This document shows, one piece after another, positions 1 to 44,194 of a stretch of 64,000 bases of DNA (its first letter is position 1; each line of letters begins with the position of its first letter). The translations under genes and the position numbers were made by a program. Under the pieces are notes generated by a model. The model ran no database searches. It was given only the letters and a program-made list of their open reading frames with translations, and was not told the origin of the DNA. This DNA is from Acidimicrobiia bacterium (GTDB taxonomy: Bacteria; Acidobacteriota; Terriglobia; Bryobacterales; Bryobacteraceae), in contig VFZE01000022.1 of assembly GCA_016871315.1 (NCBI GenBank), forward strand, positions 1 to 64,000, given 5' to 3'.

Positions 1-127
1 CGTCCGGTGGTGGTATGGTTTTTGGCCGGTGCTCGGCGGCCTGCGGCCGCCTGCGCTCCGGCTGGTTGGATGGTTTTCAACCCCAGCGACTCTCATTGGA
101 TTTGGTACATACAATGGGGGCAGGTCA

Positions 128-8655: not shown

Positions 8656-11600
8656 CTACGGAGCGATGGCAATCACGGGGCTGTTGAAAGTGAAGACCAC
8701 CTGGCCGTTGGGTTGATTCATGAAGAAGCCCAGTGGCCGGGATGCGCCGGTCGTGGTTCCCGTGGGAACCTCGATCGCGATTTCGAAGACTCCCACGTTA
8801 CCCAACATGTAGGTTGCCGATACCAGCCGCACGCCGGCATCGTTGATGCCCGCAGCGGCCGGCGCGATAATGTTCTGGCCCGCCACGCCGGTCACGTTGG
8901 TGAAGGCGCTGGGCGAAACCTGGCCCGCTCCGGTAACGAAGAATCGTATGATCTCCCCGTACCGCGCCGGATTATCCGGAGTCACGAAGCTGCCGTTTGG
9001 CCGAAGCGCGACGGCATAGCGGCGGTTCTGTCCGTCAACGGTTTCAAAGATGCCGGGTTGCAGCCCGATCACCGATACCCCGTTGACGACGGTGGAACCG
9101 GAGCCTACGCGGACGGTAACCGCAACAGGCACTCCCGGCACCAATTCAAAGGGCACCTGCAAGGTGATGCTCTGCCGTCCGCTGATGTTGCAGACGTTGA
9201 TCAGCGGAGCCAGCGTTGCTCCAAACTGCACTTCGACGTTCGACAACCGGGTGGGCAACGGCCCGAGGATGGTGTTGGCGGTAACGCAGCCGCGCAGATC
9301 CTCGGCGATTCCCAGACCGGACAGCACATACAGGCTTCCGGGGACTACTGCTCCACGTTCTCCGGATGCCGCGTTGAAGAAGTCTAGCGGGTTAAGGGTC
9401 GGGCCGGGCAGTTGCGCGGTCAGGTTAAAGGTAAGCCCGGGCAGTCCGGCCACTGCCGCATTGATCACAATGGGACCCGGGTTGGCCCCGGCGCGCACCC
9501 CGACTTGGGCTCGTCCGGTGGAGTCCGTGTTAACCGAAGCCGCTGTTAGCGTTGCACCGCCCGAGGCAACCGTGAACGTGATCGCCTGACCGGGCACGCC
9601 GGCTCCCCGATTATCGAGCACCTGGACTACCAGCGGGTTGCTGAAGTTGGCCCCTGTGAACGTAGTCTGATTGTCCCCGGAAACCTTGTTGAACTGCGCC
9701 AGTGTCGCCACGGCGCGGGCGTCAAAGGTGACGGTTGGCTGGTTTCCACCGAGCGCGGAGACCACCACTTGAACCGCTCCCGGCGTGGAGCCCAGCCGGA
9801 TGGTGTTGCTGGCGCGTCCGTTTCCGTCCGTGGTCGTAAGGTTGTTGCCGAGCAGTGTTGCGGCGCCTTGCGGGACAATCGTCCAGCGCAACTGGGCGCC
9901 TGGCAGCCGGTTGCCGCCGCCGTCATCCAGTTCGACAACCAGCGGCGCCTGCAGCGTATCGCCCGCGCGGGCCTGCTGGTTATTTCCGGAAATGATGGTC
10001 AGGTTCCCCGGCTCTCCGGGCAAAGCATCCAGGAAGATCACCCGGTCGCTAAACCCGCCGATATTCAGCCGGATCACCGCTCCCGTCCCGGCTCTGCCGG
10101 AAATCCGCAGATCGCAGGACACGATACCGGCTTCGTTGCTCAGGGGCACCGGTTTCGGCACGCAGGCGACAACGGGACCGGCCGCCGGATCATTTTCCGT
10201 AGCCGGAAATATGCCGACATTGGGCAACACCGCTCCGAAGTTGATAATCGCGGAAGAGGTGATTTGCAGACGGATCGCATCCGTTATTGTTTGTCCAACC
10301 CGGCCGGTGATCCGCAGCGGCTCACTCGTGGGCGCGAGGAAATTAACGCTCGGATTCGGCGTCTGGAAACCGCTCTGGAACGCCACCATGGTGGTCACGA
10401 AAATGGTGGCCGTGGAATTGGCCGTGCTGGCGCTGATCACGCTCTGTAAAAAGGCTACGCCTAGTGACAGATTGAACGGCGCGATAAATTCATTGCTGGT
10501 AAGCCCGTTGGCGTCGGTCGTCGTGGTCCGGCTGATGGCCCCGTCCACGGAATCGCCCAATCGGAGGTTCCCGCCTCCCTGGGTGATCGTCCATGTCACG
10601 GTCACGTTACCGGCAGGCTTGCCGTCCGCGCCAAGCACCCGAACCACCATCGGGTTCGGGGAGAAATTGCCCTCACGGACTATTTGGCCGTCGCCGGAAA
10701 CCACGGTAATGCCGCCGGCTCCGCCGGGGCCTCCGCCCCCTCCGCCTCCCGGAGCGCCAACCGTGAACGCGAAGGAGCTGCCCAAACCTGAGCCGCCAAC
10801 GGCGACGTTCACGTTAATGTCGCCAGGCGTGGCCGGAGCCACCAAAGTAGCAAAGACCTGTCCAAGGCTATTCGAGTTCGCGCTGCCGGCAGGTTCAAAG
10901 CTGACACCGGCCGTCGGCGAGCTGAAGGTGATCGGCACATTGAAAACCGGCTGGCCCGTTACCCCCACCAGTTGCACGCCGAACGGCAGCGTTCGCCCGC
11001 TGGGAGCAATCGGCTGCTGAGCCGCGTTGAAACGCAAGATTCCGCTTACTGGATTCTCCGACTGCACTCCCGCTGGACCAGCGAAGCCCATAAAAGCCGG
11101 AAGGAAATTCAGGCTCAGCTGCGTAAAGACGTTGGGCGTCGTCTGCGTCAAGTCCGCCACGTAAATCGTGTTCGCCGCATTCGGATTCAGCAGCCGCAGC
11201 GGCGCGGAGATGAAAAGCCGCAGCGAACTCGGAATCTCACCGGAGACATTTACATTGTCGATGATGGGAATGCTGCCGAGGGAACCGAAGAAAGCCTCCG
11301 CGATGCCGGGCACTCCCTGTTGCTCCCCCTGACCGGGAACAGGTGGAATCGCCAACTCATACAGCTTGCGCGGGTTCACCGAGTTTGACGTCGTCGTTAC
11401 GTAAGCACGGTTGTTTCCGGCAACCACGATCTTGTCGAACACAAACCCGGAAAAACCCTCTTGCGTGGTATTGATGCTCGTGACTCCGCCGCCCGACAGA
11501 GTCAGGGTAAAGAAGAAGATCAACTGATTGGATTGAGTTCCAATATTAACCGCCAGCGCGCGCGTCCCATCGGGTGTGAAGTGCAGCTTGCCCACGTTCG

Positions 11601-12303
11601 AGTTTTGAATGGGAAATTGGCGCCGCACGGCGTTGGAGGTAAGCGGAGTGGCTCGTGGATCGATCTCCAGTACCCGGCCCTGAGTGTTTACGTAAATAAA
11701 GCCATTGGGGGAGGCAGCGATGTTGCCTGCGGTAATACCGGGAAGAGGGATCTCGCCATCCGTGCGTAGATCCACCAGATCCACGGCCGTGACGCGTTGC
11801 GCCGTGGGGCTGATTACGAAAGCGCGGCGGCTGTCGGAGCGGAAGGCGATTCCGCTCGGCGTCGGGCCGACATCGACGGCCTGCGTCGCCTGGATCTCGG
11901 TATCTGTATCGGTATTGAAGACCCGGAGGTTGTTGCCGGCGATAACCACAAGCCGCCGTCCATCCGGCGAGATCTCCGCGGCGGTAACCGTCTGGCCCAA
12001 GCTGATGCTTTGGCCGATCGGCTGAAACGTGCTGTTCAGAATCTGAACCGAATTGCTGCCCGTCCGGGAAATCACGTAGTACTTCACGTCGTTCGGGGCG
12101 GCCGTCGGCTTAGCCAGCACGGTGAAGACGTCGGTGGTGGAGGTAAAAGTCCCCGCCTGCACCAAGGGGTTACCCCGCAGCACCGATGCGGAGCCGGTCG
12201 GGGTGTCTACGAAGGTCGGAAAAACGAAAACATTACTGGCCGGAAGGCTGGCGGCGAGCAGCAGAAGCCCGAATGCGCCAAGCGCGGTTTTCCTGGAAAC
12301 CAA
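8656..12303 (-). CDS. large secreted beta-propeller / Big-domain protein with TIGR03437 C-terminus
   Basis: A 1215-aa protein starting at a TTG (12301-12303). It is chosen because a perfect AAAAGGAGG (12310-12318) lies 6 nt upstream; an earlier in-frame TTG at 12327 would place this ribosome site inside the coding region. A signal peptide (about 1-25) is followed by a YVTN/beta-propeller-like region (about 40-370, with AAEISPDGRRLVVIAGNN). Four immunoglobulin-like Big_1-type domains follow (about 400-960, recurring TDANG/TDGNG/TDSTG). They are interrupted by a Gly/Pro linker near residues 519-530. The C-terminal 240 residues match the 'Solibacter uncharacterised C-terminal domain' pattern (NAASGERGAVVPGSLYVLSG; PARYGEIIRFFVTGAGQV). 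A cell-surface or extracellular adhesive role is likely but inferred. Confidence 0.85.
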   Translation of the reverse strand: MVSRKTALGAFGLLLLAASLPASNVFVFPTFVDTPTGSASVLRGNPLVQAGTFTSTTDVFTVLAKPTAAPNDVKYYVISRTGSNSVQILNSTFQPIGQSISLGQTVTAAEISPDGRRLVVIAGNNLRVFNTDTDTEIQATQAVDVGPTPSGIAFRSDSRRAFVISPTAQRVTAVDLVDLRTDGEIPLPGITAGNIAASPNGFIYVNTQGRVLEIDPRATPLTSNAVRRQFPIQNSNVGKLHFTPDGTRALAVNIGTQSNQLIFFFTLTLSGGGVTSINTTQEGFSGFVFDKIVVAGNNRAYVTTTSNSVNPRKLYELAIPPVPGQGEQQGVPGIAEAFFGSLGSIPIIDNVNVSGEIPSSLRLFISAPLRLLNPNAANTIYVADLTQTTPNVFTQLSLNFLPAFMGFAGPAGVQSENPVSGILRFNAAQQPIAPSGRTLPFGVQLVGVTGQPVFNVPITFSSPTAGVSFEPAGSANSNSLGQVFATLVAPATPGDINVNVAVGGSGLGSSFAFTVGAPGGGGGGGPGGAGGITVVSGDGQIVREGNFSPNPMVVRVLGADGKPAGNVTVTWTITQGGGNLRLGDSVDGAISRTTTTDANGLTSNEFIAPFNLSLGVAFLQSVISASTANSTATIFVTTMVAFQSGFQTPNPSVNFLAPTSEPLRITGRVGQTITDAIRLQITSSAIINFGAVLPNVGIFPATENDPAAGPVVACVPKPVPLSNEAGIVSCDLRISGRAGTGAVIRLNIGGFSDRVIFLDALPGEPGNLTIISGNNQQARAGDTLQAPLVVELDDGGGNRLPGAQLRWTIVPQGAATLLGNNLTTTDGNGRASNTIRLGSTPGAVQVVVSALGGNQPTVTFDARAVATLAQFNKVSGDNQTTFTGANFSNPLVVQVLDNRGAGVPGQAITFTVASGGATLTAASVNTDSTGRAQVGVRAGANPGPIVINAAVAGLPGLTFNLTAQLPGPTLNPLDFFNAASGERGAVVPGSLYVLSGLGIAEDLRGCVTANTILGPLPTRLSNVEVQFGATLAPLINVCNISGRQSITLQVPFELVPGVPVAVTVRVGSGSTVVNGVSVIGLQPGIFETVDGQNRRYAVALRPNGSFVTPDNPARYGEIIRFFVTGAGQVSPSAFTNVTGVAGQNIIAPAAAGINDAGVRLVSATYMLGNVGVFEIAIEVPTGTTTGASRPLGFFMNQPNGQVVFTFNSPVIAIAP

Positions 12304-12483: not shown

Positions 12484-14511
12484 TTAGTGGCTGAGACCTT
12501 CGCTGATCGAGCCCGTTCTGCTGGGCGCGATCAGGTCGTCCATCACCAGCGCCAGGTAGCCCTGAGCCAGTCTCTGCGCACCCAGGTCGCTGATGAAGGC
12601 ATACCCGTGAGCATACTGGAAGGCGCACTGCGCGATGATGTAGCCCTGGAATCCAGCGGTTGCGGTTACCGCGCCGCCGTTTGCCAGTGACCAGACGAAG
12701 TGTTCACCACCGGTGATCGAGGGCGAGGAGAACGCCAAGGTGACGTTCGAGCCGCCCACGTTGCCGTAGTAGTTGATCGTGCAGGCCCCGGTTTGCAGCG
12801 AGGTCCCGAACGGATCCTTCGACGTGTTCGAGATAGCGAGACCCGTGTCAAAGCCACCCTGATTCGTCACGAACGGGAACAGCAGGTTCGTGCGGCAGGA
12901 GTTCATCGTGACAAAGTTGCGGGTTACGCCGGTGTCGATGAAGCGAGGCAGCGGAGCAGAGTTCGACGCGCCGGAGACCGTGCTGATCGGAGCCAGGTTC
13001 CCATTGAAGGTAGCCGTTCCGAGGCTCGGCAGGTTGTTGGTCGTGTTCGCGCGATAGGCGACGAAGGTGCGGATCTGCACACGCTCGATGCTGTTCGTGT
13101 CGGTGTCCAGGATCTCCCAGACGGCCTGACCGCTACCGCCTACGATGGCAACCTGGGAATACTGAGCCGTTCCCGCACCTAGGACGGTCTGGGAGGCGGC
13201 GGCGTTGAACGCGCCAGCGCCATTGGCGTCAGTGCTTACCAGCCGGGCAACGCCAGTCTGCGTGGCGCCGGCCAACTCTTGCAGAGTGAACACGGCGGGC
13301 TGGGATTCCACCCACAGCTCAATACCGCTTTGCACACCGTTGAACCTGGCGATCAGGCGGGTGCCATGGCCTGCCAAGCCGAGCGTACCGGAGGCGGTGT
13401 CGGCGATGACCGTGCCGTTCTGAGCGGTAGCGGGCCACCAAGTTCCGGTGGTGTGCCTATAGAAGCTGCCGGTTTCCGTGTTGAATGGAGCACCGAGCAC
13501 GCTCTGGCTGATCGGGGTCGGCGGAGTATTACCAGTCGGACCAGGCGACGCCAAGTTGCGGCGGCGGAAGGCCGACGGGAACAACTCCGTGAAGCGGAGC
13601 CGCGCACCGGCCCCACCTTGAGCCGTAAACAGACCGTCGCAACGGGTTAGCGTGCCGGAGGTCCTCAGCGTCGCGCTCTTGTCACCCACGAAGGAGCTAT
13701 TGGCGCTTTCGCACTGGAGACAGCTGCGCGGATCGCTGACCGAGGTCACCATCGAGTTCTGCGCCACCGCAACCTGGGGAGCTGGGTTGGTGATGGGCAG
13801 AGCGATCGGGTTGGTCAAGCTGGCCGCGCTGGTGGAGACCACCAGGGACACGGAAGCCTGGCCACCGGCCGGAACACCCAACTGGGAAGCATTCACGCGC
13901 ACGTTGGTGAGGCGCAGAACGCGGGTTCCCACCGTGCCCGGAGGATCAAACGGCACACCTTGCCAGATTAGCGAGTTGGCCGCCAGCTGCCGCGCCTGGA
14001 AGGCGTTGGGCCGGTAAGTGGCTACACCACCGATCGTGGGCTTGAAGTCGTCCGGATCGTAGGTCAGCGTGGACACCGTGCCGCCCGTGTGTGCGCCGCA
14101 CACACCACCGACGATCGGCTGGCCCGCGGGAGCCGTCACCGGATTCGAGGCCGGGATGGTGGCGCTGCCGCAAAAGGCCTGCTTTGAACCGACCGGCTCG
14201 TCGATGAACAGCAACGCTTCCGAGAAGGAGCCAGTGCCCGGGCCAGAACCGATGTGCAGACGGCTGGTGATGTTGATACTCGGCGAAGTGAACACCTGGA
14301 TGTTCACCTGAGGCAGGTTCGTGCTCAGGCCATTCGGGGTTCCGCCCGAACAGATGATCAGAACGTCGCCCACAGTCTCGGTAACGCCTTCCGCGCGGAT
14401 GGCGGGGTTACCGGCGGCCTGCGCCGTACAGCTAAGGGGCTGGGCAAAGGCCGCGGTTGATGCGATCATCAACACGACCAGCGCCAGAAACAACTTGCGA
14501 AAATCAAGCAT
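12484..14511 (-). CDS. secreted protein of unknown function, 675 aa
   Basis: The ATG at 14511 follows AAGGAGAAGGAA directly upstream; a longer frame from 14613 would put this ribosome site inside the gene. There is a strong signal peptide (about 1-24, ending AFAQP). The body is Ser/Thr/Asn/Gly-rich with few charges and scattered cysteines (for example RSCLQCES near residue 255). The C-terminal 150 residues look best conserved (NLLFPFVTNQGGFDTGLAIS; TAGFQGYIIAQCAFQYAHGY). It lacks the TIGR03437-like tail of its neighbours. It appears to be a monocistronic extracellular or surface protein with its own terminator and a long upstream region. Confidence 0.75.
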   Translation of the reverse strand: MLDFRKLFLALVVLMIASTAAFAQPLSCTAQAAGNPAIRAEGVTETVGDVLIICSGGTPNGLSTNLPQVNIQVFTSPSINITSRLHIGSGPGTGSFSEALLFIDEPVGSKQAFCGSATIPASNPVTAPAGQPIVGGVCGAHTGGTVSTLTYDPDDFKPTIGGVATYRPNAFQARQLAANSLIWQGVPFDPPGTVGTRVLRLTNVRVNASQLGVPAGGQASVSLVVSTSAASLTNPIALPITNPAPQVAVAQNSMVTSVSDPRSCLQCESANSSFVGDKSATLRTSGTLTRCDGLFTAQGGAGARLRFTELFPSAFRRRNLASPGPTGNTPPTPISQSVLGAPFNTETGSFYRHTTGTWWPATAQNGTVIADTASGTLGLAGHGTRLIARFNGVQSGIELWVESQPAVFTLQELAGATQTGVARLVSTDANGAGAFNAAASQTVLGAGTAQYSQVAIVGGSGQAVWEILDTDTNSIERVQIRTFVAYRANTTNNLPSLGTATFNGNLAPISTVSGASNSAPLPRFIDTGVTRNFVTMNSCRTNLLFPFVTNQGGFDTGLAISNTSKDPFGTSLQTGACTINYYGNVGGSNVTLAFSSPSITGGEHFVWSLANGGAVTATAGFQGYIIAQCAFQYAHGYAFISDLGAQRLAQGYLALVMDDLIAPSRTGSISEGLSH

Positions 14512-34923: not shown

Positions 34924-37500
34924 TTGTCTCGTAGTTGGTTTTTTCTCACATTCACCCTCTTTGCCGCCGCCGATGCGATGGCGCAATCGGCGCCTCCTGC
35001 GGCCCCGGCCAAGCCGATGGCTGCTCCTCCGCGTCCGCGTATGCAAGCCTCCGCGATGCGCAACGAAAACGTGGTGGTGAACCCGATCGACAACAACGCC
35101 ATCAAGGAAGTGAATGTGCGGCTCGGGGCGACGGTGACGCTGGTGACCGAACTGCGTCCGGAAACGGGATATTTCGCGACAGAGTTCGGCCGGCCGGCCG
35201 GGCAGCTGCTGTTGCTCGGTCCGGCGGTGCGTCCGCCCTCCTGGCACGGAGATTTTTTCTACTGGCACCAGAACAGCGTGATGAACGCGCGCACCTTTTT
35301 TCAAGTGGGCCAGGTGCTGCCGTCGCGGAGGAATCAGCACGGGGGCCGGGTGACGGGCGAGTTGGGGCCTCGCACAGGACTGACGGCGAATTACTCCCAG
35401 CGCGATGTGCGCGGGATGGTCAACGGGAACGTGCTCGTGCCGCTGGAATCCGAGAGAACGCCGCTGACGCGGGATCCGCAGTTGAGGCCGCTGGTGGAGC
35501 GTTTCTTGAGCGCGTATCCGAAGCAGCTGCCGAACCGGCCGGACTTTGACGCACGGGCGCTGAACACGAATGCGCCCCAGCGCATTGACGATCTGGACGG
35601 GAACCTGCGGCTCGATCACGACCTGGGTTCGCGGGGGAAGCTTCACCTGCTCTATGTGAACGGGCGGGCTCGGACGGACGCGTTTCAGCTGGTGGCGGGA
35701 CAGAATCCCGATTCGGCGATCCATAGCCACCGCGCGCAGGCCACGTGGAAGTTCGCAGCATCGCCGGGGACCGATGTGGCGATGGGAGGAAACTTTACCA
35801 GAACGGCATCGAACCTGTTGCCGGAGCCGAACGCAGTGGGCGTGCGTGTGCGGGTCGGTTACCAGATTGAAGAGCTGGGTCCGGAGAGCGAGTTTCCGGT
35901 GATGCGGGCGCAGAACCTGTACCGCTACGGCGCCGATGTAGCGCACCGCGTGGCGGACCGGCATGAGTTCCGGCTGGGCGGCGAGATCACCCGGTTCCAG
36001 CTCAACGGCATCGAGACCAGCAATCTCCGCGGGCAGTTCAACTTCACGAACAACTTTGGGCGCACGGCGATTGAGAATCTGCGGCTGGGAACACCGGCGT
36101 TTTTCGAGGCCACCACGGGAGAGATGGCGCGCGGATTCCGGACGTGGGGAGGAAGCCTGTACGCGGCGGACCGCTGGAGGATCACGACGGCGCTGCAACT
36201 GCACTATGGGGTGCGGTACGGCTTTGCAACAGCGCCGTCGGAGGTGAACGGACTGCACGAGACCCCGTATGCCTGCGACTGCAACAATTTCAGCCCGCGG
36301 CTCTCGCTGGCATGGCAAATGGGCACGGGATGGATACTGCGGACCGGCTACACGGTTTCGTTCGGGGAGATCCAGCCGGTGACGTTCCAGCAGATGCGCT
36401 TCAACCTGCCGCACACGCGGATGGTCCAGGTGCAGAATCCGGACCTGTTGAATCCGCTCAGCGGCGGCGGGAACCTCGACAGGAGCGCGCCGACGATCCT
36501 TTCGCCCGACCTCGTGGCGCCGTACGTGCACCAGTACAACCTCAACGTGGAGCGGAAGTTGAGCGGCGGGATGCTGTTGCGCGTGGCCTATATCGGCGAC
36601 CGCAGCTTGAAGCTGATGAACTCCTTCATCCAGAACCGGGCCGAGCCCGTACCGGGAGTGCCGTTGACGCTCGACACCGTGGACCAGCGGAGACCGGATG
36701 CGCGCTACTTTGATACACGCAGTATTCTGAACGGCGGCATGGGCCACTTCAACGCGGGCCAGGCGACCGTGGATTTGCCCTATTATCGCGGACTGCGTTT
36801 GTCGGCCAGCTACACGTTCAGCAAGGCGATCGACGACGGGTCCGATTACACCTCGACGGCGGCCAACCGTGACCTGATGCGGGCGCGGAGCCAGTGGCAG
36901 TATGAATCGTTTGGGGACAAGCGAAGCCTCTCGGCATTTGATTCGCCGCACTCGCTGCTGACCAGCTTCAGTTACGATTTGCCGGCGCTGGCGGGCCGTT
37001 CGAAGTGGGCGCGGAGACTGGCCGGTGGCTGGCAGCTGGCGGGCGTTACGCTGGTCAAATCGGGGACGCCGCTGACTCTGTTTGTGGGGTCGGATGCGCC
37101 GGGGTTCGGGAACGTCGATGGAGGACCAAGCGACCGGCCGAACATCGTGGACGCGAGTATTCTGGGAGCGACGATCTCCCACCCCGACCTCGCGCCACAG
37201 ATTCTGCGGCGCGACCGGTTTGCCTATATTGTGCCTGGGGAGCGGCGAGGGTCGTTGGGGAGGAACAGTTTCCGCAAGGCACGGATCTCGAATTTCAATG
37301 CCGCCGTTACCAAGCAATGGCAGTGGGCGGCCAGCGGGCGTGAGTGGACGACGCAGCTGCGCGCCGAGACGTACAACCTGACCAACACGCCGCAGTTTGA
37401 TGAGCCGCAGCGCAACCTGAGCTCGCCTGCATTCGGCAAGATCACGAATACCTTAAATGATGGCCGCGTATTTCAGATCGGAGTGAGGTTAACTCTTTGA
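34924..37500 (+). CDS. Oar-like TonB-dependent receptor lacking the regulatory domain
   Basis: An 858-aa predicted outer-membrane protein. It has a signal peptide (about 1-21, ending AMAQ) and an Ala/Pro-rich linker. A short plug-like region follows (about 40-95: NENVVVNPIDNNAIKEVNVR; FGRPAGQLLLLGPAVRP), then a long barrel ending QIGVRLTL. Barrel motifs match the Oar-like receptors (LRLSASYTFSKAIDDG; LRAETYNLTNTPQFDEPQ). It lacks the N-terminal carboxypeptidase-regulatory domain of the receptor at 3771. The start is a TTG at 34924 with no clear ribosome site, so the exact start is uncertain. The substrate is unknown. Confidence 0.82.
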   Translation: MSRSWFFLTFTLFAAADAMAQSAPPAAPAKPMAAPPRPRMQASAMRNENVVVNPIDNNAIKEVNVRLGATVTLVTELRPETGYFATEFGRPAGQLLLLGPAVRPPSWHGDFFYWHQNSVMNARTFFQVGQVLPSRRNQHGGRVTGELGPRTGLTANYSQRDVRGMVNGNVLVPLESERTPLTRDPQLRPLVERFLSAYPKQLPNRPDFDARALNTNAPQRIDDLDGNLRLDHDLGSRGKLHLLYVNGRARTDAFQLVAGQNPDSAIHSHRAQATWKFAASPGTDVAMGGNFTRTASNLLPEPNAVGVRVRVGYQIEELGPESEFPVMRAQNLYRYGADVAHRVADRHEFRLGGEITRFQLNGIETSNLRGQFNFTNNFGRTAIENLRLGTPAFFEATTGEMARGFRTWGGSLYAADRWRITTALQLHYGVRYGFATAPSEVNGLHETPYACDCNNFSPRLSLAWQMGTGWILRTGYTVSFGEIQPVTFQQMRFNLPHTRMVQVQNPDLLNPLSGGGNLDRSAPTILSPDLVAPYVHQYNLNVERKLSGGMLLRVAYIGDRSLKLMNSFIQNRAEPVPGVPLTLDTVDQRRPDARYFDTRSILNGGMGHFNAGQATVDLPYYRGLRLSASYTFSKAIDDGSDYTSTAANRDLMRARSQWQYESFGDKRSLSAFDSPHSLLTSFSYDLPALAGRSKWARRLAGGWQLAGVTLVKSGTPLTLFVGSDAPGFGNVDGGPSDRPNIVDASILGATISHPDLAPQILRRDRFAYIVPGERRGSLGRNSFRKARISNFNAAVTKQWQWAASGREWTTQLRAETYNLTNTPQFDEPQRNLSSPAFGKITNTLNDGRVFQIGVRLTL

Positions 37501-37545
37501 GGGATAGCTGGAGTTTCCACTATATATTCCTTCTAGTTTTCGGTA

Positions 37546-37551
37546 TATAAT
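37546..37551 (+). promoter_or_regulatory. possible -10 box for the PP2C phosphatase gene
   Basis: TATAAT lies 12 bp before the ATG at 37564, in a short AT-rich spacer after the receptor stop. No convincing -35 element is seen, and the leader would be very short. Confidence 0.3.
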
Positions 37552-37563
37552 TCGCTGGAGTCC

Positions 37564-38322
37564 ATGATCGAGGCTGCTGGCAACTCGGACCCAGGTTGCG
37601 TCCGGAAGAATAACGAGGACAAGCTATTTATCAATCAGGCGCTCGGCTTGTACGTCCTGGCTGATGGCATGGGCGGAGCCCAGGCGGGGGAGACGGCGGC
37701 GCAAATTGCCATCGATGCGGTGGTAGATTATGTCCGGGGGACCGAGCAACGTTCCTCGGAAACGCTGGTGCAGGCATTCGAGCTGGCCAACCAGAAGGTG
37801 CGCGAGGAGGCAGCCACCGCGCCGCACTTGAACGGGATGGGGACAACTCTGGTTGCCGTGCTGGAGTGCGGCAATGAACTGGCGATAGCCAGCGTGGGGG
37901 ACAGCCGCGCATACCTGGTGGAAGGCAATGCCATGAAGGCGATCACGCAGGATCAGACGTGGGCCAACGAGGTGGGCAGAAGGCTGGGATTGAACGATCA
38001 GCAGCTGAAGACACATCCGATGCGGCATGTGCTGACGATGGCCATCGGCGTGGATGCGCCCCTGCGGGTGCACTCCTATAAGGTGGCGCCGGGACCCGAC
38101 GTGCAGATCCTGCTGTGCAGCGATGGGCTGCATGGGGTGGTAAACAAGGAGACGATCGGTGAGCAGCTGAACGCCACCGCGAGCTTGGAAGATAAGTGCT
38201 GCGCGCTGATCGAGTTGGCCAGGCAGGCGGGCGGGCCGGATAACATCACTGCGGTACTGCTGCACCACAGCGGCTCCAATAACTCCTATCCGCAGGCGAA
38301 GAATACCTACCCCGGTCAATAA
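37564..38322 (+). CDS. PP2C-family serine/threonine protein phosphatase
   Basis: A 252-aa cytosolic phosphatase with the bacterial Stp/PrpC plan. Metal-binding motifs are in order: NEDKLF (about 17), ADGMGGAQAGE (about 33), GMGTTLVA (about 87), VGDSRAYLV (about 108), LCSDGLHG (about 180) and GGPDNITAV (about 225). All acidic ligands are present. It would dephosphorylate Ser/Thr targets; its usual partner kinase is not adjacent, and the only kinase in the window (53131) is broken. Confidence 0.93.
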   Translation: MIEAAGNSDPGCVRKNNEDKLFINQALGLYVLADGMGGAQAGETAAQIAIDAVVDYVRGTEQRSSETLVQAFELANQKVREEAATAPHLNGMGTTLVAVLECGNELAIASVGDSRAYLVEGNAMKAITQDQTWANEVGRRLGLNDQQLKTHPMRHVLTMAIGVDAPLRVHSYKVAPGPDVQILLCSDGLHGVVNKETIGEQLNATASLEDKCCALIELARQAGGPDNITAVLLHHSGSNNSYPQAKNTYPGQ

Positions 38323-38351
38323 AGGTGGGAGATTTCCCCCCCTCACCGCAC

Positions 38352-38357
38352 TATACT
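38352..38357 (+). promoter_or_regulatory. possible -10 box for the 38388-41112 gene set
   Basis: TATACT lies 30 bp before the ATG at 38388, after a C-rich stretch. No clear -35 element is visible. Confidence 0.25.
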
Positions 38358-38387
38358 CTTCGAGGCTAATGGGGCCCGTCAGTCGGG

Positions 38388-38996
38388 ATGCGCATGAGGC
38401 TGTTAGCAGCGGCGCCGCTGGCACTGGTTGTGTCGGCGCCGGTCGCGAGTGGTGAAATCGCGAGCCTGCAAATCAAGATCATTCAGGGAGAGGATACGGT
38501 GCATAGCGCCGGACGGCGGGGGCGGCGTCCGATCCGCGTAGAAGTACAGGAGCCGACAGGCAAGCCGGTGGAGGGAGCGGTGGTGAGCTTCAGTCTGCCC
38601 GAGGAACACGGCAGCCAGTTCGCGAACGGGATGAAGACGGAGATTGTGACGACGGGCGCCGACGGGCGGGCGTCAGTGTGGGGCATGGAATGGGGCAAGG
38701 AACCCGGACCGGTGCGTATACGGATCACGGCTTCGAAAGGCGAGGCGCGGGCGGGCGGCATCCTGGTCCAGACATTGGCGGAAGAGGCTCCGGCGGTGGA
38801 AGCTGCGGCGGAACGGCCGGTGAAAATCGCTAAGCCCGGCAGCCGCTGGACGCTGATCGCGGTGGTGGCGGCGGGGGCGGCGGCCGGGGCGCTAAGCGCG
38901 GGTCTGACGAAAAAGGGCGCGGCGGCAGCCGGGCCCGCGGCGGCGGCGCCGGCCCTGCAGATCGGCCCTCCGGCGATTTCGGTGACCAGGCCATGA
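38388..38996 (+). CDS. secreted/anchored protein with Big_1-like domain
   Basis: A 202-aa protein with a signal peptide (about 1-22). A single immunoglobulin-like Big_1-type domain spans about 28-125 (GKPVEGAVVSFSLPEEHG; TTGADGRASVWG), and a hydrophobic Ala/Gly-rich segment lies near the C-terminus (about 148-170). The start may be ATG 38388 or ATG 38394. It is first of three genes joined by 4-nt overlaps (38993-38996 and 39760-39763). The function is unknown. Confidence 0.7.
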   Translation: MRMRLLAAAPLALVVSAPVASGEIASLQIKIIQGEDTVHSAGRRGRRPIRVEVQEPTGKPVEGAVVSFSLPEEHGSQFANGMKTEIVTTGADGRASVWGMEWGKEPGPVRIRITASKGEARAGGILVQTLAEEAPAVEAAAERPVKIAKPGSRWTLIAVVAAGAAAGALSAGLTKKGAAAAGPAAAAPALQIGPPAISVTRP

Positions 38997-39763
38997 GGAT
39001 TATGATTCCGGCAAGAGCGGCGATTCTGTTCTTCTGCGCGGCTCATCTGCCGCTGATGGCGCAACGGATGGGCGTGCCCCGGCTGGGGTGCGTGGTGAGC
39101 GCCGGCGGTGCGGTGCGGATGGTCTACGGGCTGCGCGCGAATTTTATCCTGGGCGAAGCGGCACAAATAGAAGCGGTGTCGGCGGCCTGTTCGGAAACCA
39201 ACGCGGTGGTGAAGACAACGGATGCCTTGGTGGTGTTGGATGCCGAGGGCCGCGAACGCCACCGGTTTCTGGCGGAGGCCGGCGCCGCTCTTGTGTCCTT
39301 CCGGGATGACGGTGACGTGGGACATGTCTATCTCACCGCAACGCGCGAGTTGTTGCGGTGGGAGAACGAGGAATGGGTGAAGGCGGATCTTCCGCATGCG
39401 GGAGAGATTCTCTCGATTGGGGAGCGGGACGGCGCCGTCGTGGCGGTGGAGCGCCGGGGCGAGGAGCTGTGGCTGGTGGAGAGCCGCGCGGACGGACGGT
39501 ACCAGGTTCTGTCGCGGTTTGTGTCGGAAGCGTTGTTCGCCGTGCTGCTGCCCGACGGCTCCCTGGTGCTGGCGGCGGGCGAGAAGCTGGTGCATCGAAA
39601 GCCGGATGGGAGCCAAACGGAGATCGAGGTTCCCGCGGCGGTGACACGGCTGTCGGTGATCGGCGGGAAGTGGGTGCAGGTGGAGACCGGAGTGCAGCGC
39701 ATGGCGGTGCGGGTGGAGGGCGGTCAGGCCGAGGCCTACTATCTACCTGGGGAAGCGCGATGA
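38993..39763 (+). CDS. secreted protein of unknown function, 256 aa
   Basis: It has a signal peptide (about 1-23, ending LMAQ) and then mostly beta-strand pattern with repeated short blade-like units (GHVYLTATRELLRWENEEWV; ALFAVLLPDGSLVLAAGEKL), suggesting a small beta-propeller-like or stacked-strand fold. No catalytic motif is recognised. Both ends overlap neighbours by 4 nt (ATGA), so the three genes are translationally coupled. Confidence 0.68.
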   Translation: MRIMIPARAAILFFCAAHLPLMAQRMGVPRLGCVVSAGGAVRMVYGLRANFILGEAAQIEAVSAACSETNAVVKTTDALVVLDAEGRERHRFLAEAGAALVSFRDDGDVGHVYLTATRELLRWENEEWVKADLPHAGEILSIGERDGAVVAVERRGEELWLVESRADGRYQVLSRFVSEALFAVLLPDGSLVLAAGEKLVHRKPDGSQTEIEVPAAVTRLSVIGGKWVQVETGVQRMAVRVEGGQAEAYYLPGEAR

Positions 39764-41112
39764 AGCGTCTTGCGGTACTGGCGCTTTTGTGCGCCGGGTG
39801 CGTGCAGGCGCAGTTTTCCATCGCGACGATCAGCGGGAACGGCGAGGAACGGGCAATCGTGGGGATCGTCGAAACGGAGAAGGTGCAGGCGGGCGGGTTT
39901 CAGGATATCCGCGTGCGGCTGCGTAACACCGGGGAGGCGACGGCGGCACTGTCGCGGCTGCGGATAACCGGGGTGGGGTTTTCTCTATTGGGGCAGCCGC
40001 CGTTGCCGCACTTGGTGGCGCCGGGGCTGAACGTGGATTTCCGCGTCAGGTTCCTGCCGGCGCAGTTTGGGATCTATAGCGGAACGCTCGAGGTGAACGA
40101 AACGGTCGTGCTGTTTCGTGGGGTAAGCCCGCAAGGGATTACCGTGCTGGTGGAGCAAAGGGGGCGTCTGGAGACGGCGACAGAGACGGTGCCTGTGGTG
40201 GCGGGGCGCGTGGAAGTAGGCAAGTCGGCCGGGCTGCGTCTGGTCGTGCGGAATGACGCGGCGGGTCCTCTGGTTGTGGGTGCCCTCACCGTGCAGGGTG
40301 AGGCATTTTCGCTGTATCCCGCTCCGGCGCTTCCATTGCCGGTGGAGCCGGGACGGTCAGCGGAGTTTGAGCTGCGGTTCGCTCCGCTGCGGGTGGGAGT
40401 GGCGCAGGGAACTCTATTGGTGGATACGCTGAGGATCGCGCTGGAAGGCTTCGCGATTGCGCCGCCGTTTCCCGCGGCGATCCTGTCGCTGGAGCCCGCG
40501 CTTGCGAGTGGCCGCCAAGGCCGGATCGCGCTGCGGCTGGACGCGCCGCCGCTGGTATCGGCCGCCGGAACGCTGACTTTGGAGTTCCGGTCAGCAGTCA
40601 CCGTGGGCGGGGACGATCCGGCAATCGTGTTTTTGAACGGAGCGTCGCGAAGCGTCGCCGTGGCGGTGAGGCAAGGCGAGACGAACCTGGGCGAGTGGAT
40701 GTTTCAGACGGGCTCGACGGCGGGAGAGATCCGCTTCCGCTTGCAATTGGGCGACCAGCGATGGGAGGCCGCGGCGGCGATCGCGCCGGCGATGGTGGCC
40801 GTGGATGCGGTGCGGGGAGTAAGAACGGCGACGGGTGTGCAAGTGGATATTACCGGGTTTGATAATTCGCGGACCGCTTCCACACTGGGATTCCGGTTCT
40901 TTGACCGCCAGGGGAATGCGCTGGGCGGAGATGTGTTGCGGGCCGATGCGGCGTCCGGCTTTCAGAGCCACTTCCGGACGGCGAACGTCGGTGGGCTGTT
41001 TCTGTTGCGGGCTGTGTTTCCCGTAGGGGGCGATACGGCCCTGATCGGGGCAGTGGAGGTGGAGATCGATAACGCACAAGGCAGGACAAGGGCGTCGCGG
41101 GCCAGTTTTTAG
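39760..41112 (+). CDS. secreted protein with ASH/choice-of-anchor-like Ig domains
   Basis: A 450-aa protein starting at ATG 39760 (GGGGAAG a few nt upstream; 4-nt overlap with the previous stop). It has a signal peptide (about 1-18) and two immunoglobulin-like repeats of the ASPM-SPD2-Hydin type (about 25-125 and 140-230: PGLNVDFRVRFLPAQFGIYS; PGRSAEFELRFAPLRVGVAQ). The C-terminal beta domain contains FQSHFRTANVGGLFLLRAV. The DNA for that segment (40957-40996) is duplicated exactly at 42279-42318. The longer frame from 39358 is the previous gene in another frame. It is probably an extracellular binding protein. Confidence 0.75.
   Translation: MKRLAVLALLCAGCVQAQFSIATISGNGEERAIVGIVETEKVQAGGFQDIRVRLRNTGEATAALSRLRITGVGFSLLGQPPLPHLVAPGLNVDFRVRFLPAQFGIYSGTLEVNETVVLFRGVSPQGITVLVEQRGRLETATETVPVVAGRVEVGKSAGLRLVVRNDAAGPLVVGALTVQGEAFSLYPAPALPLPVEPGRSAEFELRFAPLRVGVAQGTLLVDTLRIALEGFAIAPPFPAAILSLEPALASGRQGRIALRLDAPPLVSAAGTLTLEFRSAVTVGGDDPAIVFLNGASRSVAVAVRQGETNLGEWMFQTGSTAGEIRFRLQLGDQRWEAAAAIAPAMVAVDAVRGVRTATGVQVDITGFDNSRTASTLGFRFFDRQGNALGGDVLRADAASGFQSHFRTANVGGLFLLRAVFPVGGDTALIGAVEVEIDNAQGRTRASRASF
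40957..40996 (+). repeat. repeat R1, copy 1 (within coding sequence)
   Basis: A 40-bp segment coding for part of FQSHFRTANVGG in the 39760 gene. It is identical base for base to 42279-42318, where it abuts the second half of a TIR domain. Confidence 0.95.
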
Positions 41113-41315
41113 GCGGGTCGCTTGGGAGTTGGACGCGGCAGGCTACACGACGTTCTCGCAAGCATGGGATTTTGAGCCCGGGCAGAATTTCATCCTGAAA
41201 ATGCGGGACGCCGCCGTCGCGGGTGCGGCCTTTCGAGGCGGCGGCCGCCATCTGCAGTGAGCCGGGGAACCTGCCGCTGGTGCTGGAGCATACCGCGCCG
41301 ACGCATCCAATCATG
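41113..41315 (+). pseudogene. TIR-domain N-terminal half joined to an NB-ARC scrap
   Basis: Translation from about 41115 gives VAWELDAAGYTTFSQAWDF and PGQNFILKMRDAAVAG, the middle of the TIR_2-type domain found in bacterial TIR-NB-ARC (STAND) proteins. The first strand and start codon are missing. Within 25 bp the sense changes to another frame and reads AAAAICSEPGNLPLVLEH (41238-41291), a degenerate copy of the GLPL-region motif of the NB-ARC module found intact at 43110-43163. The TIR half ends where the fragment at 42319 begins. Confidence 0.72.
41238..41291 (+). repeat. repeat R2, diverged copy
   Basis: 54 bp matching 43110-43163 at 50 of 54 positions by eye. Both code for the NB-ARC segment ICxExGNLPLxLEH. 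Confidence 0.85.
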
Positions 41316-41358
41316 CGACCCTTCGCCTGTACGCATGGTATAAGTGTTATATACCTCC

Positions 41359-41628
41359 ATGCGCTATTCTTTCGATGAACGAAAGAGCCGTTTGGTTAAA
41401 CGCCTGCATGGAGTCAGTCTCGAGGAGGCTCTCGAGATCTTCGATCAGGTTCACCTGATCGACCGGAAGAATGATGATCCCTTGCCGTTTCGCGCCATCG
41501 GCTGGTGCCGCGGGCAACTCTGTTCGGTGATCTACGAGGTCAGAAGTGATGGGAAGGGGGAACTCCACCATCTGATCACCGCCTGGAAATCGACTACGGA
41601 GCAAATCGCCTATGCCGAAAACACGTAA
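41359..41628 (+). CDS. brnT: BrnT-family toxin of a type II toxin-antitoxin system
   Basis: An 89-aa protein with the BrnT pattern: an N-terminal FDERKSRLVKRLHGVSLEEA, a central strand region (RAIGWCRGQLCSVIYEV) and a C-terminal HHLITAWKSTTEQIAYAE. BrnT is a RelE-fold ribonuclease that blocks translation and is neutralised by BrnA. The ATG at 41359 matches the family N-terminus better than the GTG at 41344. The gene overlaps the antitoxin by 17 nt. It lies between the two TIR halves. Confidence 0.8.
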   Translation: MRYSFDERKSRLVKRLHGVSLEEALEIFDQVHLIDRKNDDPLPFRAIGWCRGQLCSVIYEVRSDGKGELHHLITAWKSTTEQIAYAENT

Positions 41629-41869
41629 GCCCCGCAAAACGCCGGATGAGATCGCAGCCATGGCCAGACGCGGAGAAGACGTGTCGCAATTCTTCTCCAA
41701 TAAGTTCACCGTCGTGCGGCCGATCAGGCGTGTCAATGTTGACCTCACCGAAGGCATGCTGCGGGAACTGGATGCCCGCGCGGCGCGGCTCAACATCAGC
41801 AGGCAGGCTGTCATCAAGACCCTGCTCGCTCAGGCCATCGAGCAATCGTCCGGCAAGAGCGCGAGCTGA
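41612..41869 (+). CDS. brnA: BrnA-family antitoxin (ribbon-helix-helix)
   Basis: An 85-aa protein. The basic N-terminus and the region binding toxin (about 8-35) are followed by a ribbon-helix-helix DNA-binding fold (about 40-78: RRVNVDLTEGMLRELDARAA; LNISRQAVIKTLLAQAIEQ). It should neutralise the BrnT toxin and repress the pair's promoter. It overlaps the toxin gene by 17 nt, as is common for this family. Confidence 0.8.
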   Translation: MPKTRKPRKTPDEIAAMARRGEDVSQFFSNKFTVVRPIRRVNVDLTEGMLRELDARAARLNISRQAVIKTLLAQAIEQSSGKSAS

Positions 41870-41994
41870 GATCCCTGAATACCGCGGATGCCATCAGGGA
41901 TCTGTTCTCCGGCTGGACCCCCACCGAAGAAGCAGACCCCACAACTTCCGGCCTGGTCCAGCAGCAGGCGTGGTTCGCCAAGCTCCGGAAATGA
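41869..41994 (+). pseudogene. short ORF fragment before the AbiEii remnant
   Basis: An open stretch with no start codon reads LNTADAIRDLFSGWTPTEEA and then SGLVQQQAWFAKLRK before the stop at 41992-41994. It immediately precedes the nucleotidyltransferase remnant and may be the tail of its usual small upstream partner. It is not a recognised family. Confidence 0.4.
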
Positions 41995-42235
41995 CCCCAT
42001 CCTCCAGGCCGCGGCGGAGATCCAGCACTTCTTCGATCAACCGCTTTGGAGCCACTGCATCATCGGCGGCGTAGCGCTTCTCTATTGGGGCGAGCCACGC
42101 CTCACCCGTGACGTCGATATTACCCTGCTGGCCGGATACGGAAGAGAAGATGAGTTTATCCTGCCCGTCCTGGATGGGCCTTTTCGTTCCAGGGCGGAAC
42201 GCATCGGCCTCTGTGCCAAATCGAAGAGCAGTTGA
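41995..42235 (+). pseudogene. AbiEii-type nucleotidyltransferase, N-terminal fragment
   Basis: In the frame ending at 42235 the sequence reads DPILQAAAEIQHFFDQPLWS, then CIIGGVALLYWGEPRLTRDV and DITLLAGYG. This is the start of the AbiEii/AbiGii-like nucleotidyltransferase fold (GG-x9 motif and DVDIT). No start codon lies at the expected place, and the remaining two thirds of the domain is absent after about 70 residues. It cannot be a working toxin. Full-length relatives act in type IV toxin-antitoxin or abortive infection systems. Confidence 0.65.
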
Positions 42236-42278
42236 AGCCGCGGAGGCCAAGCAGCAGCCTGAGATCCTTACGGCCGCG

Positions 42279-42318
42279 GGCTTTCAGAGCCACTTCCGGA
42301 CGGCGAACGTCGGTGGGC
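42279..42318 (+). repeat. repeat R1, copy 2
   Basis: 40 bp identical to 40957-40996 in the 39760 gene. Here it is not part of that gene and is joined directly to the TIR second half starting at 42319. Confidence 0.95.
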
Positions 42319-43619
42319 ACGATTGCGGTGATGTCCCCGGATTATCTGGAGTCGCGCTTCGCGGCCGATGAATGGTCGGCGGCGTTCGCGGGCGATACGC
42401 TGCTGCCTGTGCGGGTGCGCCCCTTCAAGGATAAGCTCTTGGGCGTCAGGGTCTATATTGACTTGGTTGATCAGGATGCGGCTGCGGCGCGGGCGGCGTT
42501 GCTGGAAGGAGTAAAGCAAGGCCGGCGGAAGCCCGCGTCGGCCCCGTCGTTTCCGGGCAACAAACGAGCGCAGCCCCCTCAATTTCCCGGTTCGCTACCG
42601 GAGCTCTGGCGCGTTCTTCACAGGCAGGGAAGAGCTGCTAAAGGCGCTCTACCGTTCCTTGCGCAGCGGGCAGCCCGCCGCGGTGACGCAGGCGATTGCG
42701 GGCTTGGGCGGGGTGGGGAAAACGACCCTGGCGGCCGAGTATTGCTACCGTCATGCCGGCGAGTACGGCTGCGTCTGGTGGGTTCGGGCCGAGCAGAGCG
42801 CGACGCTCGTGGAGGATCTGGCGCTGCTGGCCGAGCGGCTGGGCGTGGCGGAAAAGAATGAGCAGGACCGCACGGCCGCGGCGCGCCGCGCGCTCGAATG
42901 GCTGCACGCGAATCGCGAGTGGCTGGTTGTCTTCGACAATGCGGGGCCTCCGGCGGAGTGCGCGGATTGGATGCCACGCTCGGGCTCGGGCCACGTCATT
43001 ATCACATCGCGCGACCCAGGCGGCGGCCCGGACGGTGGAGGTGGCGGTGCTGGAGCCGTTGGAGGCCGTCCGGTTTTTGCAGGAGCGCACGGGGAAACAG
43101 GAGCCGTTGGCGGCCGCCGCCATCTGCAGGGAGCTGGGGAACCTGCCGCTGGCGCTGGAGCATGCGGCGGCCTATGTGTTGGATGCGGTGATTGGACTCG
43201 CCGTCTACCTGGAGCGGCTGCGCACACGCGGGAAAAAGCTCCGCGGGCCGGTGGCCTCGAGCGTGGGGCTGTCGATTGATCGGTTGACCAAGGAGTCGAG
43301 CGGCCTGCTGGAGAGGCTTGCATTTCTGGCGCCGGAAGACATACCGCGCGACGTGTTCGGGGAGGAGGACGATGAAGCCTTCGCCGGGTTGCGGCGGCAT
43401 TCACTCATTAGCACAGGGGCCGATGCGTTCCGCGTTCACCGGTTGGTGCAGGCGGTGGTTCGGGATGGGCTTGCTGAGCGGAGGGCTGGGCAGGCGGAAG
43501 AGGTTGTCAAATGGATGAACCGGGTGTTTCCGTTCGTGCGGGACAAGAATGAGATCGCGGCCATGGCCAACCGCACGGCTTCATCCAGTTCCTCCAGTAG
43601 CGCGTGCCTCTCGCGGTAG
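42319..43619 (+). pseudogene. TIR (C-terminal half) - NB-ARC STAND ATPase, frameshifted and truncated
   Basis: From 42319 the sense reads TIAVMSPDYLESRFAADEW, continuing through LLPVRVRPFKDKLLGVRVYI, the second half of a TIR_2-type domain. Near 42600 the frame changes; the new frame gives an NB-ARC ATPase with FFTGREELLKALYRSL, Walker A GLGGVGKTT (42701-42727) and Walker B-like REWLVVFDN (about 42915-42940), then ITSRDP. Near 43020 it shifts again to VEVAVLEPLEAVRFLQERTG, GNLPLALEHAAAY and the winged-helix part (LAFLAPEDIPRDVF, FRVHRLVQAVVRDGL). The frame stops at 43619 before any TPR repeats, which full-length relatives carry as the sensor. Intact members are NAD-consuming antiphage NLR-like proteins. 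Confidence 0.78.
43110..43163 (+). repeat. repeat R2, parent copy within NB-ARC
   Basis: The segment encoding AAAICRELGNLPLALEH. A copy with four differences lies at 41238-41291. Confidence 0.85.
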
Positions 43620-43876
43620 GCAGAATGGCCGCCTGGCCCATGGCCTCCGCCACGGCCCAGCAACAGCGCACTCTCGCGTTTGTTGATGATGCCTCAGAGG
43701 GCGGCTTCGATCAACTCATGGTAGGGCAGGCAAGCGGGCGTGCTTACCGCCTTTCCCGCCCGTGACGGCGCTGGGTCCAGCCGAACTGGCCCAGCGCGAT
43801 CACTTGTTTTTGCTTTTCTTTGCCCAACACCGCTCACCGGCCAGAGCGTATTGCTCCGCCGAACTTCATCGAGAGA
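43620..43876. other. gap of 257 bp after the NB-ARC pseudogene
   Basis: An open stretch from an ATG at 43625 codes for about 46 residues (LAFVDDASEGGFDQLMVGQA) without a recognisable family. It may be further debris of the defence locus. No terminator or repeat was seen. Confidence 0.3.
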
Positions 43877-44194
43877 TCAATTCTCGAACACCAGCTTCGT
43901 CGCCGTCCCCCCGATCCGGATCTCTCTCACCTTGTACTTGCCGTCTCCGTTCAAATACCGGATCGAGGTCGAGTTGAACTTGGAATCCGCCGTTTCCACC
44001 TTCACCGTCGCTTCCACTTCGTTCTTTCCGTTGCTGATCACAACCTTGTTGTCCTCGACGGTCAGCATGTAATCACCCGCCTTCAACTCCGATCCCGCAA
44101 CCACCGAATCCTGATACAGCTTCAACCGGTGTGACTGGGCGGCAGTGGCGATTGCCAGCGCGGCAAACGCAAATAGAGTAAGCAGTTTTTTCAT
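43877..44194 (-). CDS. small secreted beta-strand protein
   Basis: A 105-aa protein with a signal peptide (about 1-19). The rest is a compact beta-rich domain (LYQDSVVAGSELKAGDYMLT; KNEVEATVKVETADSKF; YKVREIRIGG). AAGGAG lies just upstream of the ATG. Similar small exported proteins are common in Acidobacteria, with no assigned function as far as I know. It is transcribed alone, downstream of miaA. Confidence 0.72.
   Translation of the reverse strand: MKKLLTLFAFAALAIATAAQSHRLKLYQDSVVAGSELKAGDYMLTVEDNKVVISNGKNEVEATVKVETADSKFNSTSIRYLNGDGKYKVREIRIGGTATKLVFEN

Follow-up and report, generated by a model that had tools for sequence, protein, structure and literature searches.

A decayed TIR-NB-ARC gene split by a composite toxin-antitoxin insert: a likely scar of illegitimate break repair

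Eukaryotic polymerase-theta end joining produces templated insertions, in which short patches are copied from near the break junctions. In Streptomyces ambofaciens, which lives in soil and possesses Ku as well as ATP-dependent ligases, two scars left by the repair of a nuclease-induced laboratory break carry inserts of 42 or 83 bp taken from near the break, the five inserts found overall range from 30 bp to 18.8 kb, and non-homologous end joining (NHEJ) is tied to such integration (PMC5869714). Here we describe a locus in a stretch of 64,000 nucleotides, referred to as the window (positions 1 to 64,000, forward strand, of contig VFZE01000022.1 in assembly GCA_016871315.1, labelled Acidimicrobiia bacterium and placed by GTDB in the Bryobacteraceae), in which a gene of the TIR-NB-ARC type is split inside its TIR codons by an insert carrying the toxin-antitoxin pair BrnT/BrnA (BrnTA) and the remains of an AbiEii-type pair. 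We think it likely that illegitimate break repair captured the toxin-antitoxin DNA, together with local filler, inside a decaying TIR-NB-ARC gene. On our best reading the event is of a known kind, local filler at break-repair scars as in Streptomyces, and the window holds a natural and more layered example of it. The likeness to the S. ambofaciens scars lies in the combination of nearby inserts of tens of bp with longer captured DNA; the differences are that the window is a natural locus, whose mechanism has to be reasoned back, that several breaks are present, that copies stand at both ends of the insert and that the cargo is a toxin-antitoxin pair. This layering exceeds the laboratory cases that we found in the literature by a search that was not exhaustive.

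The interrupted gene resembles TIR-NB-ARC-TPR (NLR-like) proteins, with a TIR_2 domain, a Walker A motif and DUF7779 in the same order as in four homologues (L015, L016, L018 and L024) that were aligned and read by eye for domain order, and its NB part is closest to NCBIfam NF040586 (FxSxx-COOH system TPR protein). It differs from such proteins in having no start, no TIR N-terminus, a split TIR, two frame changes and no TPR part. The BrnTA pair resembles type II BrnT/BrnA systems in its overlapping open reading frames (ORFs), a toxin from a family that Pfam names as ribonuclease, an RHH antitoxin and a conserved upstream element, and departs from them in that the scores of BrnT (Pfam) and BrnA (NCBIfam) lie below the cut-offs and in that it sits inside a broken gene. 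The window lies on contig 22 of a 6.25-Mb genome assembled in 166 contigs.

The split TIR domain and the gene around it

The first part of the TIR domain (41117-41230, plus strand, 38 aa, 5'-truncated) begins a few bases past the stop codon of an upstream gene, here called U, and covers positions 16-47 of the TIR_2 profile PF13676 with E 1.5e-5 and 25.9 bits, slightly below the cut-off of 28 (matches to Pfam and NCBIfam were judged throughout against the curated cut-offs in bits). It is 51-62% identical to eight of the ten TIR loci of the order and 34% and 46% identical to the other two. The second part, with a linker (42319..42606, plus strand), covers positions 54-120 of the same profile (E 6.4e-9, 36.8 bits, above the cut-off) and retains the E-W pair, which is invariant among the seven aligned sequences. 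The spacing across the cut was compared with that in homologues from 72 loci of the GTDB collection, which are spread over many phyla and several of which carry Acidobacteria or Bryobacteraceae labels: between the conserved M..AA stretch and TIAV lie five residues in 69 homologues and four in the remaining three (two of which are labelled Acidobacteria), and the window has five (VAGAA) ahead of the insert. By this count the two parts abut and do not overlap, apparently with no residue lost at the cut, give or take one, which agrees with an earlier note, made from the sequence of the window, that had described a TIR domain split into two complementary halves. The same note had stated that only a few residues are missing; this is borne out at the cut, to within one residue, and fails for the domain at large, since the N-terminal end of the TIR, which in homologues resembles FFISYNKADRAWAEW, is gone, amounting to the first 15 profile positions or roughly 20 residues. 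Because of this loss the halves do not rebuild one complete TIR_2 domain, as had been proposed. Breakpoints that abut are easier to reconcile with an insertion than with a tandem duplication and two independent deletions, and we take the fit of the halves as the strongest argument for insertion. For the TIR of L024, one of the homologues, a comparison with solved chains returned TIR domains, the best at E 6.3e-7. A further homologue, L017 (G231:C275), has a TIR of the same type and a C-terminal half unlike the NB-ARC pieces, an apparent case of domain swapping behind a TIR of the window's type.

Downstream of the second TIR part, a first NB-ARC frame (42608..43018, plus strand) keeps the Walker A motif GLGGVGKTT and matches PF00931 (E 1.2e-6, above the cut-off) and NF040586 (E 2.4e-47, 162 bits, cut-off 300), and a second frame (43017..43548, plus strand) continues through NB-ARC/DUF7779 (PF25000, E 3.5e-8, above the cut-off), the remainder of the gene being lost. 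The changes of frame, near 42606 and near 43015, come with small losses relative to homologues. Similarity to the NB-ARC homologues stops near 43548 (near DKNE), ahead of their TPR-like part, and this part, identified in the homologues by eye, is not present in the window gene in a by-eye comparison; the claims made earlier for the NB-ARC region, a retained GLGGVGKTT, two frame changes and a missing TPR part, were thus all recovered. With the insert, the two frame changes and the loss of the TIR start region, TIR-NB-ARC has no single open frame with a start, and judged from these lesions the gene is a pseudogene, dead and broken beyond any single reading frame. Six pieces of the locus gave no convincing match to the PADLOC defence models (best E 0.018). 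On our reading the locus is decayed and not a working hybrid, and the insertion made no new defence protein or working system.

Composition of the insert

The insert spans 1,088 bp, from the end of the first TIR part at 41230 to the start of the second at 42319, in keeping with the roughly 1.1 kb with BrnT/BrnA and a truncated AbiEii-type gene that had been noticed earlier. From left to right it consists of 6 nt, a 61-nt copy of NB-ARC sequence, 37 nt of no assigned origin, the BrnTA module, a piece of the AbiEii partner, 68 AbiEii codons, a 26-nt stretch, an AbiEii scrap and a 40-nt copy of part of U.

The BrnTA module opens with a promoter- or operator-like element, an imperfect palindrome (GGTATA...TATACC; 41335..41358, plus strand) recognised by alignment with relatives, which lies just before brnT and aligns in all four BrnTA relatives (L032-L035), less well kept in L035; it is likely to be the operator or promoter bound by BrnA and the boundary of the module. 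The toxin gene brnT (41359..41628, plus strand) is an open ORF of 89 aa that matches PF04365 (E 3.9e-6, 27.5 bits, cut-off 34.5) and is 61-66% identical to the four relatives, one of which, L035, carries an in-frame stop in its brnT. BrnT has no match among the NCBIfam models and, among solved chains, matches one, 7vd7, labelled only 'toxin', with a weak E of 0.017. The ORF of brnA (41612..41869, plus strand, open, 85 aa) overlaps that of brnT by 17 nt, scores 24.6 bits against RHH_1 (above the cut-off of 20.5) and 52.1 bits against NCBIfam NF047399 (below the cut-off of 60), and is 69-75% identical to the relatives. We regard BrnTA as probably an ordinary RNase toxin-antitoxin pair, predicted to be active, its overlapping frames being open and its upstream element in place, and it looks to be the sole part of the locus still alive.

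Behind brnA lies the C-terminal part of a small AbiEii-partner ORF (41863..41994, plus strand), with matches in seven of 11 AbiEii loci, whose N-terminus is lost against the end of brnA; the frames in five AbiEii loci extend further N-terminally. It is followed by the N-terminal part of an AbiEii-type nucleotidyltransferase, 68 codons (41990..42193, plus strand; PF08843, E 0.0075, below the cut-off) that are up to 60% identical to relatives, and then by a C-terminal scrap in a changed frame (IEEQLKP...EAKQQPEIL; 42220..42278, plus strand), identified by eye against the C-termini of homologues such as YIEMQISPLAELKEDPEIM. Among the 257 genomes of the order used for homologue searches, a set that includes the window's own, AbiEii matches occur in 45, again including the window's own. 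A full-length AbiEii with its antitoxin is absent from the locus, where the 68 N-terminal codons, the C-terminal scrap and the truncated partner ORF are all that is present, and on these remains the AbiEii pair is judged dead, broken beyond any single frame. In five AbiEii loci (L037, L038, L039, L041 and L042) a frame of about 75-80 aa (longer in L038), carrying the motif TTSGLVEQQAWFAKLR or a near variant, stands upstream of the AbiEii-type gene and is possibly its antitoxin.

BrnTA and AbiEii were not adjacent in any of the 11 AbiEii loci (scanned over at most about 1.5 kb per side) and four BrnTA loci examined, and since no such pairing occurs in these 15 loci the insert looks composite; the picture of one defence module inserted into another, as the earlier note had it, is not upheld. 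In the surroundings of the 72 TIR loci, over up to 4 kb per side and less at contig ends, BrnT, BrnA and AbiEii gave no match at E 0.01.

Local copies at the breaks and the origin of the locus

A local repeat search found two firm copies of nearby DNA, one towards each end of the insert. On the left, 41237..41297 (plus strand) is a direct copy of NB-ARC positions 43109-43169 with 55 of 61 nt identical, beginning 6 nt past the end of the first TIR part. On the right, 42279..42318 (plus strand) is an exact copy (40/40) of positions 40957-40996 within U, and both of its ends lie at homology boundaries, the AbiEii scrap on one side and the first resumed TIR codon on the other. No exact repeat in the 64 kb is longer than this 40-nt copy, and the second longest measures 18 nt, a difference that speaks for more than chance; elsewhere in the genome gene U is the only other strong place for the 40-nt sequence (next E 0.097). 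Two shorter matches stand at other breaks: 26 nt at the internal deletion of AbiEii (42194..42219, plus strand) agree at 24 of 26 positions with the reverse complement of 43408-43433, and 26 nt at the 3' break of NB-ARC (43549..43574, plus strand) agree at 23 of 26 with brnA positions 41646-41671.

As a control, ungapped repeats lying at least 20 nt apart, with starts within 5 kb of each other, were collected from 63 stretches (1.257 Mb) of the same genome. Repeats of at least 60 bits numbered 13, in six of the 63 stretches, or about 0.076 per 7.3 kb, where the focus locus has two; by sequence the 13 look like pairs of protein-repeat or paralogue type plus three rows of a tRNA-Thr cluster, the cluster being the only one checked row by row. 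Each of the four best repeats of the focus has an end at most 8 nt from a break, and random placement within 41113-43620 did as well in 0.0065% of 200,000 draws, a figure to be used as a guide and not as a p-value because the eight breaks were listed after the repeats had been seen and one of them, at 42219, was placed by the edge of a repeat. Locus L108 (G000:C26) holds a 204-bp repeat of 99% identity (10967-11170 and 11916-12119) with a third copy of 40 nt and 95% identity at 12767-12806, the first copy beginning inside a tRNA-Thr gene (10936-11011); these are probably the attachment-site repeats of integrated elements.

In the account that we favour, a TIR-NB-ARC(-TPR) gene would have been truncated at both ends, before or after the insertion, and opened within the TIR codons at the cost of at most a small loss of TIR sequence, and a composite of about 1.09 kb would have been built into the gap from a copy of the gene's own downstream DNA, BrnTA together with the element in front of it, fragments of an AbiEii pair and a copy of part of U. 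The agent would be illegitimate repair at a single double-strand break or at several, whether by Ku/LigD end joining or by template-switching synthesis, which would have captured loose DNA and patched each end with nearby DNA as filler, BrnTA being carried along as a passenger; what is shown are the homologies, the fit of the TIR halves, the firm copies at both ends of the insert and the genes for Ku and LigD, and what we infer are the pathway, the order and number of the events, the status of the two 26-nt matches as copies and the activity of BrnTA. The genome encodes Ku (282 aa) and LigD as divergent ORFs, back to back and 36 bp apart on contig 48, and LigD has a phosphoesterase domain, a ligase domain and the start of a polymerase domain in the part examined. 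If this account is right, the window holds a natural fossil of the break repair that in laboratory Streptomyces pastes filler and stray genes into a gap, a route by which toxin-antitoxin pairs might spread without a transposase is suggested, and annotators are warned against calling the locus a TIR/toxin-antitoxin hybrid defence system.

Several observations weigh against it. Insertions by illegitimate joining are reported also from Escherichia coli, a species that lacks Ku and LigD, according to the report on S. ambofaciens (PMC5869714), so possession of these two genes is no specific sign of NHEJ; microhomology of 1-6 nt, given there for half of the S. ambofaciens scars, is not clear at any join here, where an intact TIR sequence for a reading at base level is lacking. 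The divergence of the two firm copies is unequal, with six differences in 61 nt for NB-ARC and none in 40 for U, which ill suits one event: if the 6/61 measures time, the chance of 0/40 is about 1.5% (0.9 to the power 40), and at least two events are to be expected. The earlier proposal of a single insertion event accordingly is supported as regards insertion in preference to tandem duplication, on the abutting halves, and is not supported as regards a single event, on this unequal divergence and the further breaks. The two 26-nt matches are unremarkable by score, since the background contains 83 repeats of either kind with at least 35 bits, the score of the direct match, and three inverted repeats with at least 39 bits, the score of the inverted one, and the inverted match may in addition overlap native AbiEii codons; what speaks for them as copies is position, each having an end at a homology break. 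Elsewhere in the 1.257 Mb, repeats that reach both 40 nt and 95% identity are confined to the tRNA-Thr cluster, so that the process, if at work in the lineage, leaves few visible traces. The data are, finally, one assembly of one strain.

The main rival, which we consider rather unlikely, is a tandem duplication of U-TIR-NB-ARC with BrnTA/AbiEii lying between its two copies, each of which then suffered one deletion: the stretch from the second TIR half to NB-ARC vanished from copy 1, and the last part of U together with the first TIR half from copy 2, the 61-nt and 40-nt repeats being remnants of the two copies. The order U-TIR5-N'-X-U'-TIR3-N is as this rival expects, and both copies would be explained with no need of a filler mechanism; however, both deletions must then have ended at the same TIR codon, within about one residue, a coincidence whose chance we guess, and have not computed, to be about one in a hundred or fewer, while the remnants diverge unequally (0/40 against 6/61) and the two 26-nt matches are left as chance. 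That the four BrnTA relatives share the operator-to-stop module only, with unrelated DNA on both flanks, suggests that the pair moves, and might be taken to mean that BrnTA and AbiEii form a dedicated mobile cassette targeting defence genes. We give this very little credence, as neither a target-site duplication nor terminal inverted repeats could be made out clearly, the ends are copies of local DNA, and the surroundings of the 72 TIR loci (no BrnT, BrnA or AbiEii match at E 0.01) and the 15 toxin-antitoxin loci (no BrnTA-AbiEii adjacency) show no sign of such a block. We also considered, and dropped, the idea that recombination between the 40-nt sequence in U and its copy serves as a programmed switch, because the frames of U and of the second TIR part differ across the copy and no in-frame fusion would result.

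The joining of pieces from different strains or places via a short repeat during assembly would be conceivable in a genome of 166 contigs, with the right junction lying at an exact repeat of 40 nt, yet the contig ends make such an artefact improbable. Of 142 ends fetched, 78 were free of Ns (64 were dropped) and showed seven shared end overlaps, six of them of 127 or 128 nt and one of 52 nt; three of the six derive from one repeat at three contigs, leaving about four that are independent. These overlaps indicate that the final assembly graph used k=127, and words of that length must span the 40-nt repeat and its flanks, so that a misjoin there is unlikely. The window contains no Ns, and the genome holds no second match to the second TIR part, AbiEii or BrnT at E 0.001. 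An overlap of 127-128 nt links the start of the contig itself (window 1-128) to those of contigs 14 and 28, a repeat that branches at the contig edge.

Going beyond the repair account of this one locus, a more speculative extension, doubtful in our own estimate, is that the lineage heals broken ends by multi-step, theta-like template-switching joining, with patches of 25-60 nt drawn, in either orientation, from sites no more than about 2 kb away, and that this offers transposase-free toxin-antitoxin modules a route for entering and wrecking other defence genes. The short nearby patches are alike in the window and in theta joining; the polymerase is eukaryotic, and a bacterial counterpart is a guess.

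Gene U and the flanking sequence

Gene U (39760..41112, plus strand), source of the 40-nt copy, is an open frame of 450 aa with an ASH/Ig-like stretch (PF15780, E 6.5e-6, 26.7 bits, cut-off 27). It is 49% identical over 433 aligned positions to its homologue in G001, a genome of the same genus, and from its open reading frame and from this alignment, which reaches the last residue, U appears to end normally. The G001 contig begins within the U homologue, and as the contigs of G001 break near the genes an empty site is not demonstrable by synteny; three stretches of G001, compared at E 0.001, gave nothing for the pieces of TIR, NB-ARC, BrnTA or AbiEii.

At the other end of the locus, the rest of the genome holds nothing related to 43530-43880 (next best E 0.157). 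A candidate minus-strand gene there was rejected: of the order's 257 genomes, 43541-43663 matches one, that of the window itself, and 43439-43663 is without any Pfam family. Upstream, the block formed by a TonB-receptor-like gene, a PP2C-like gene, the gene at 38388 and U (34924-41112) was compared with L030, and in G012 the same TonB-receptor-like-to-U block is oriented opposite to the adjoining block of a small gene, miaA and TPR. This difference in orientation would reflect an inversion or a move beside the broken locus.

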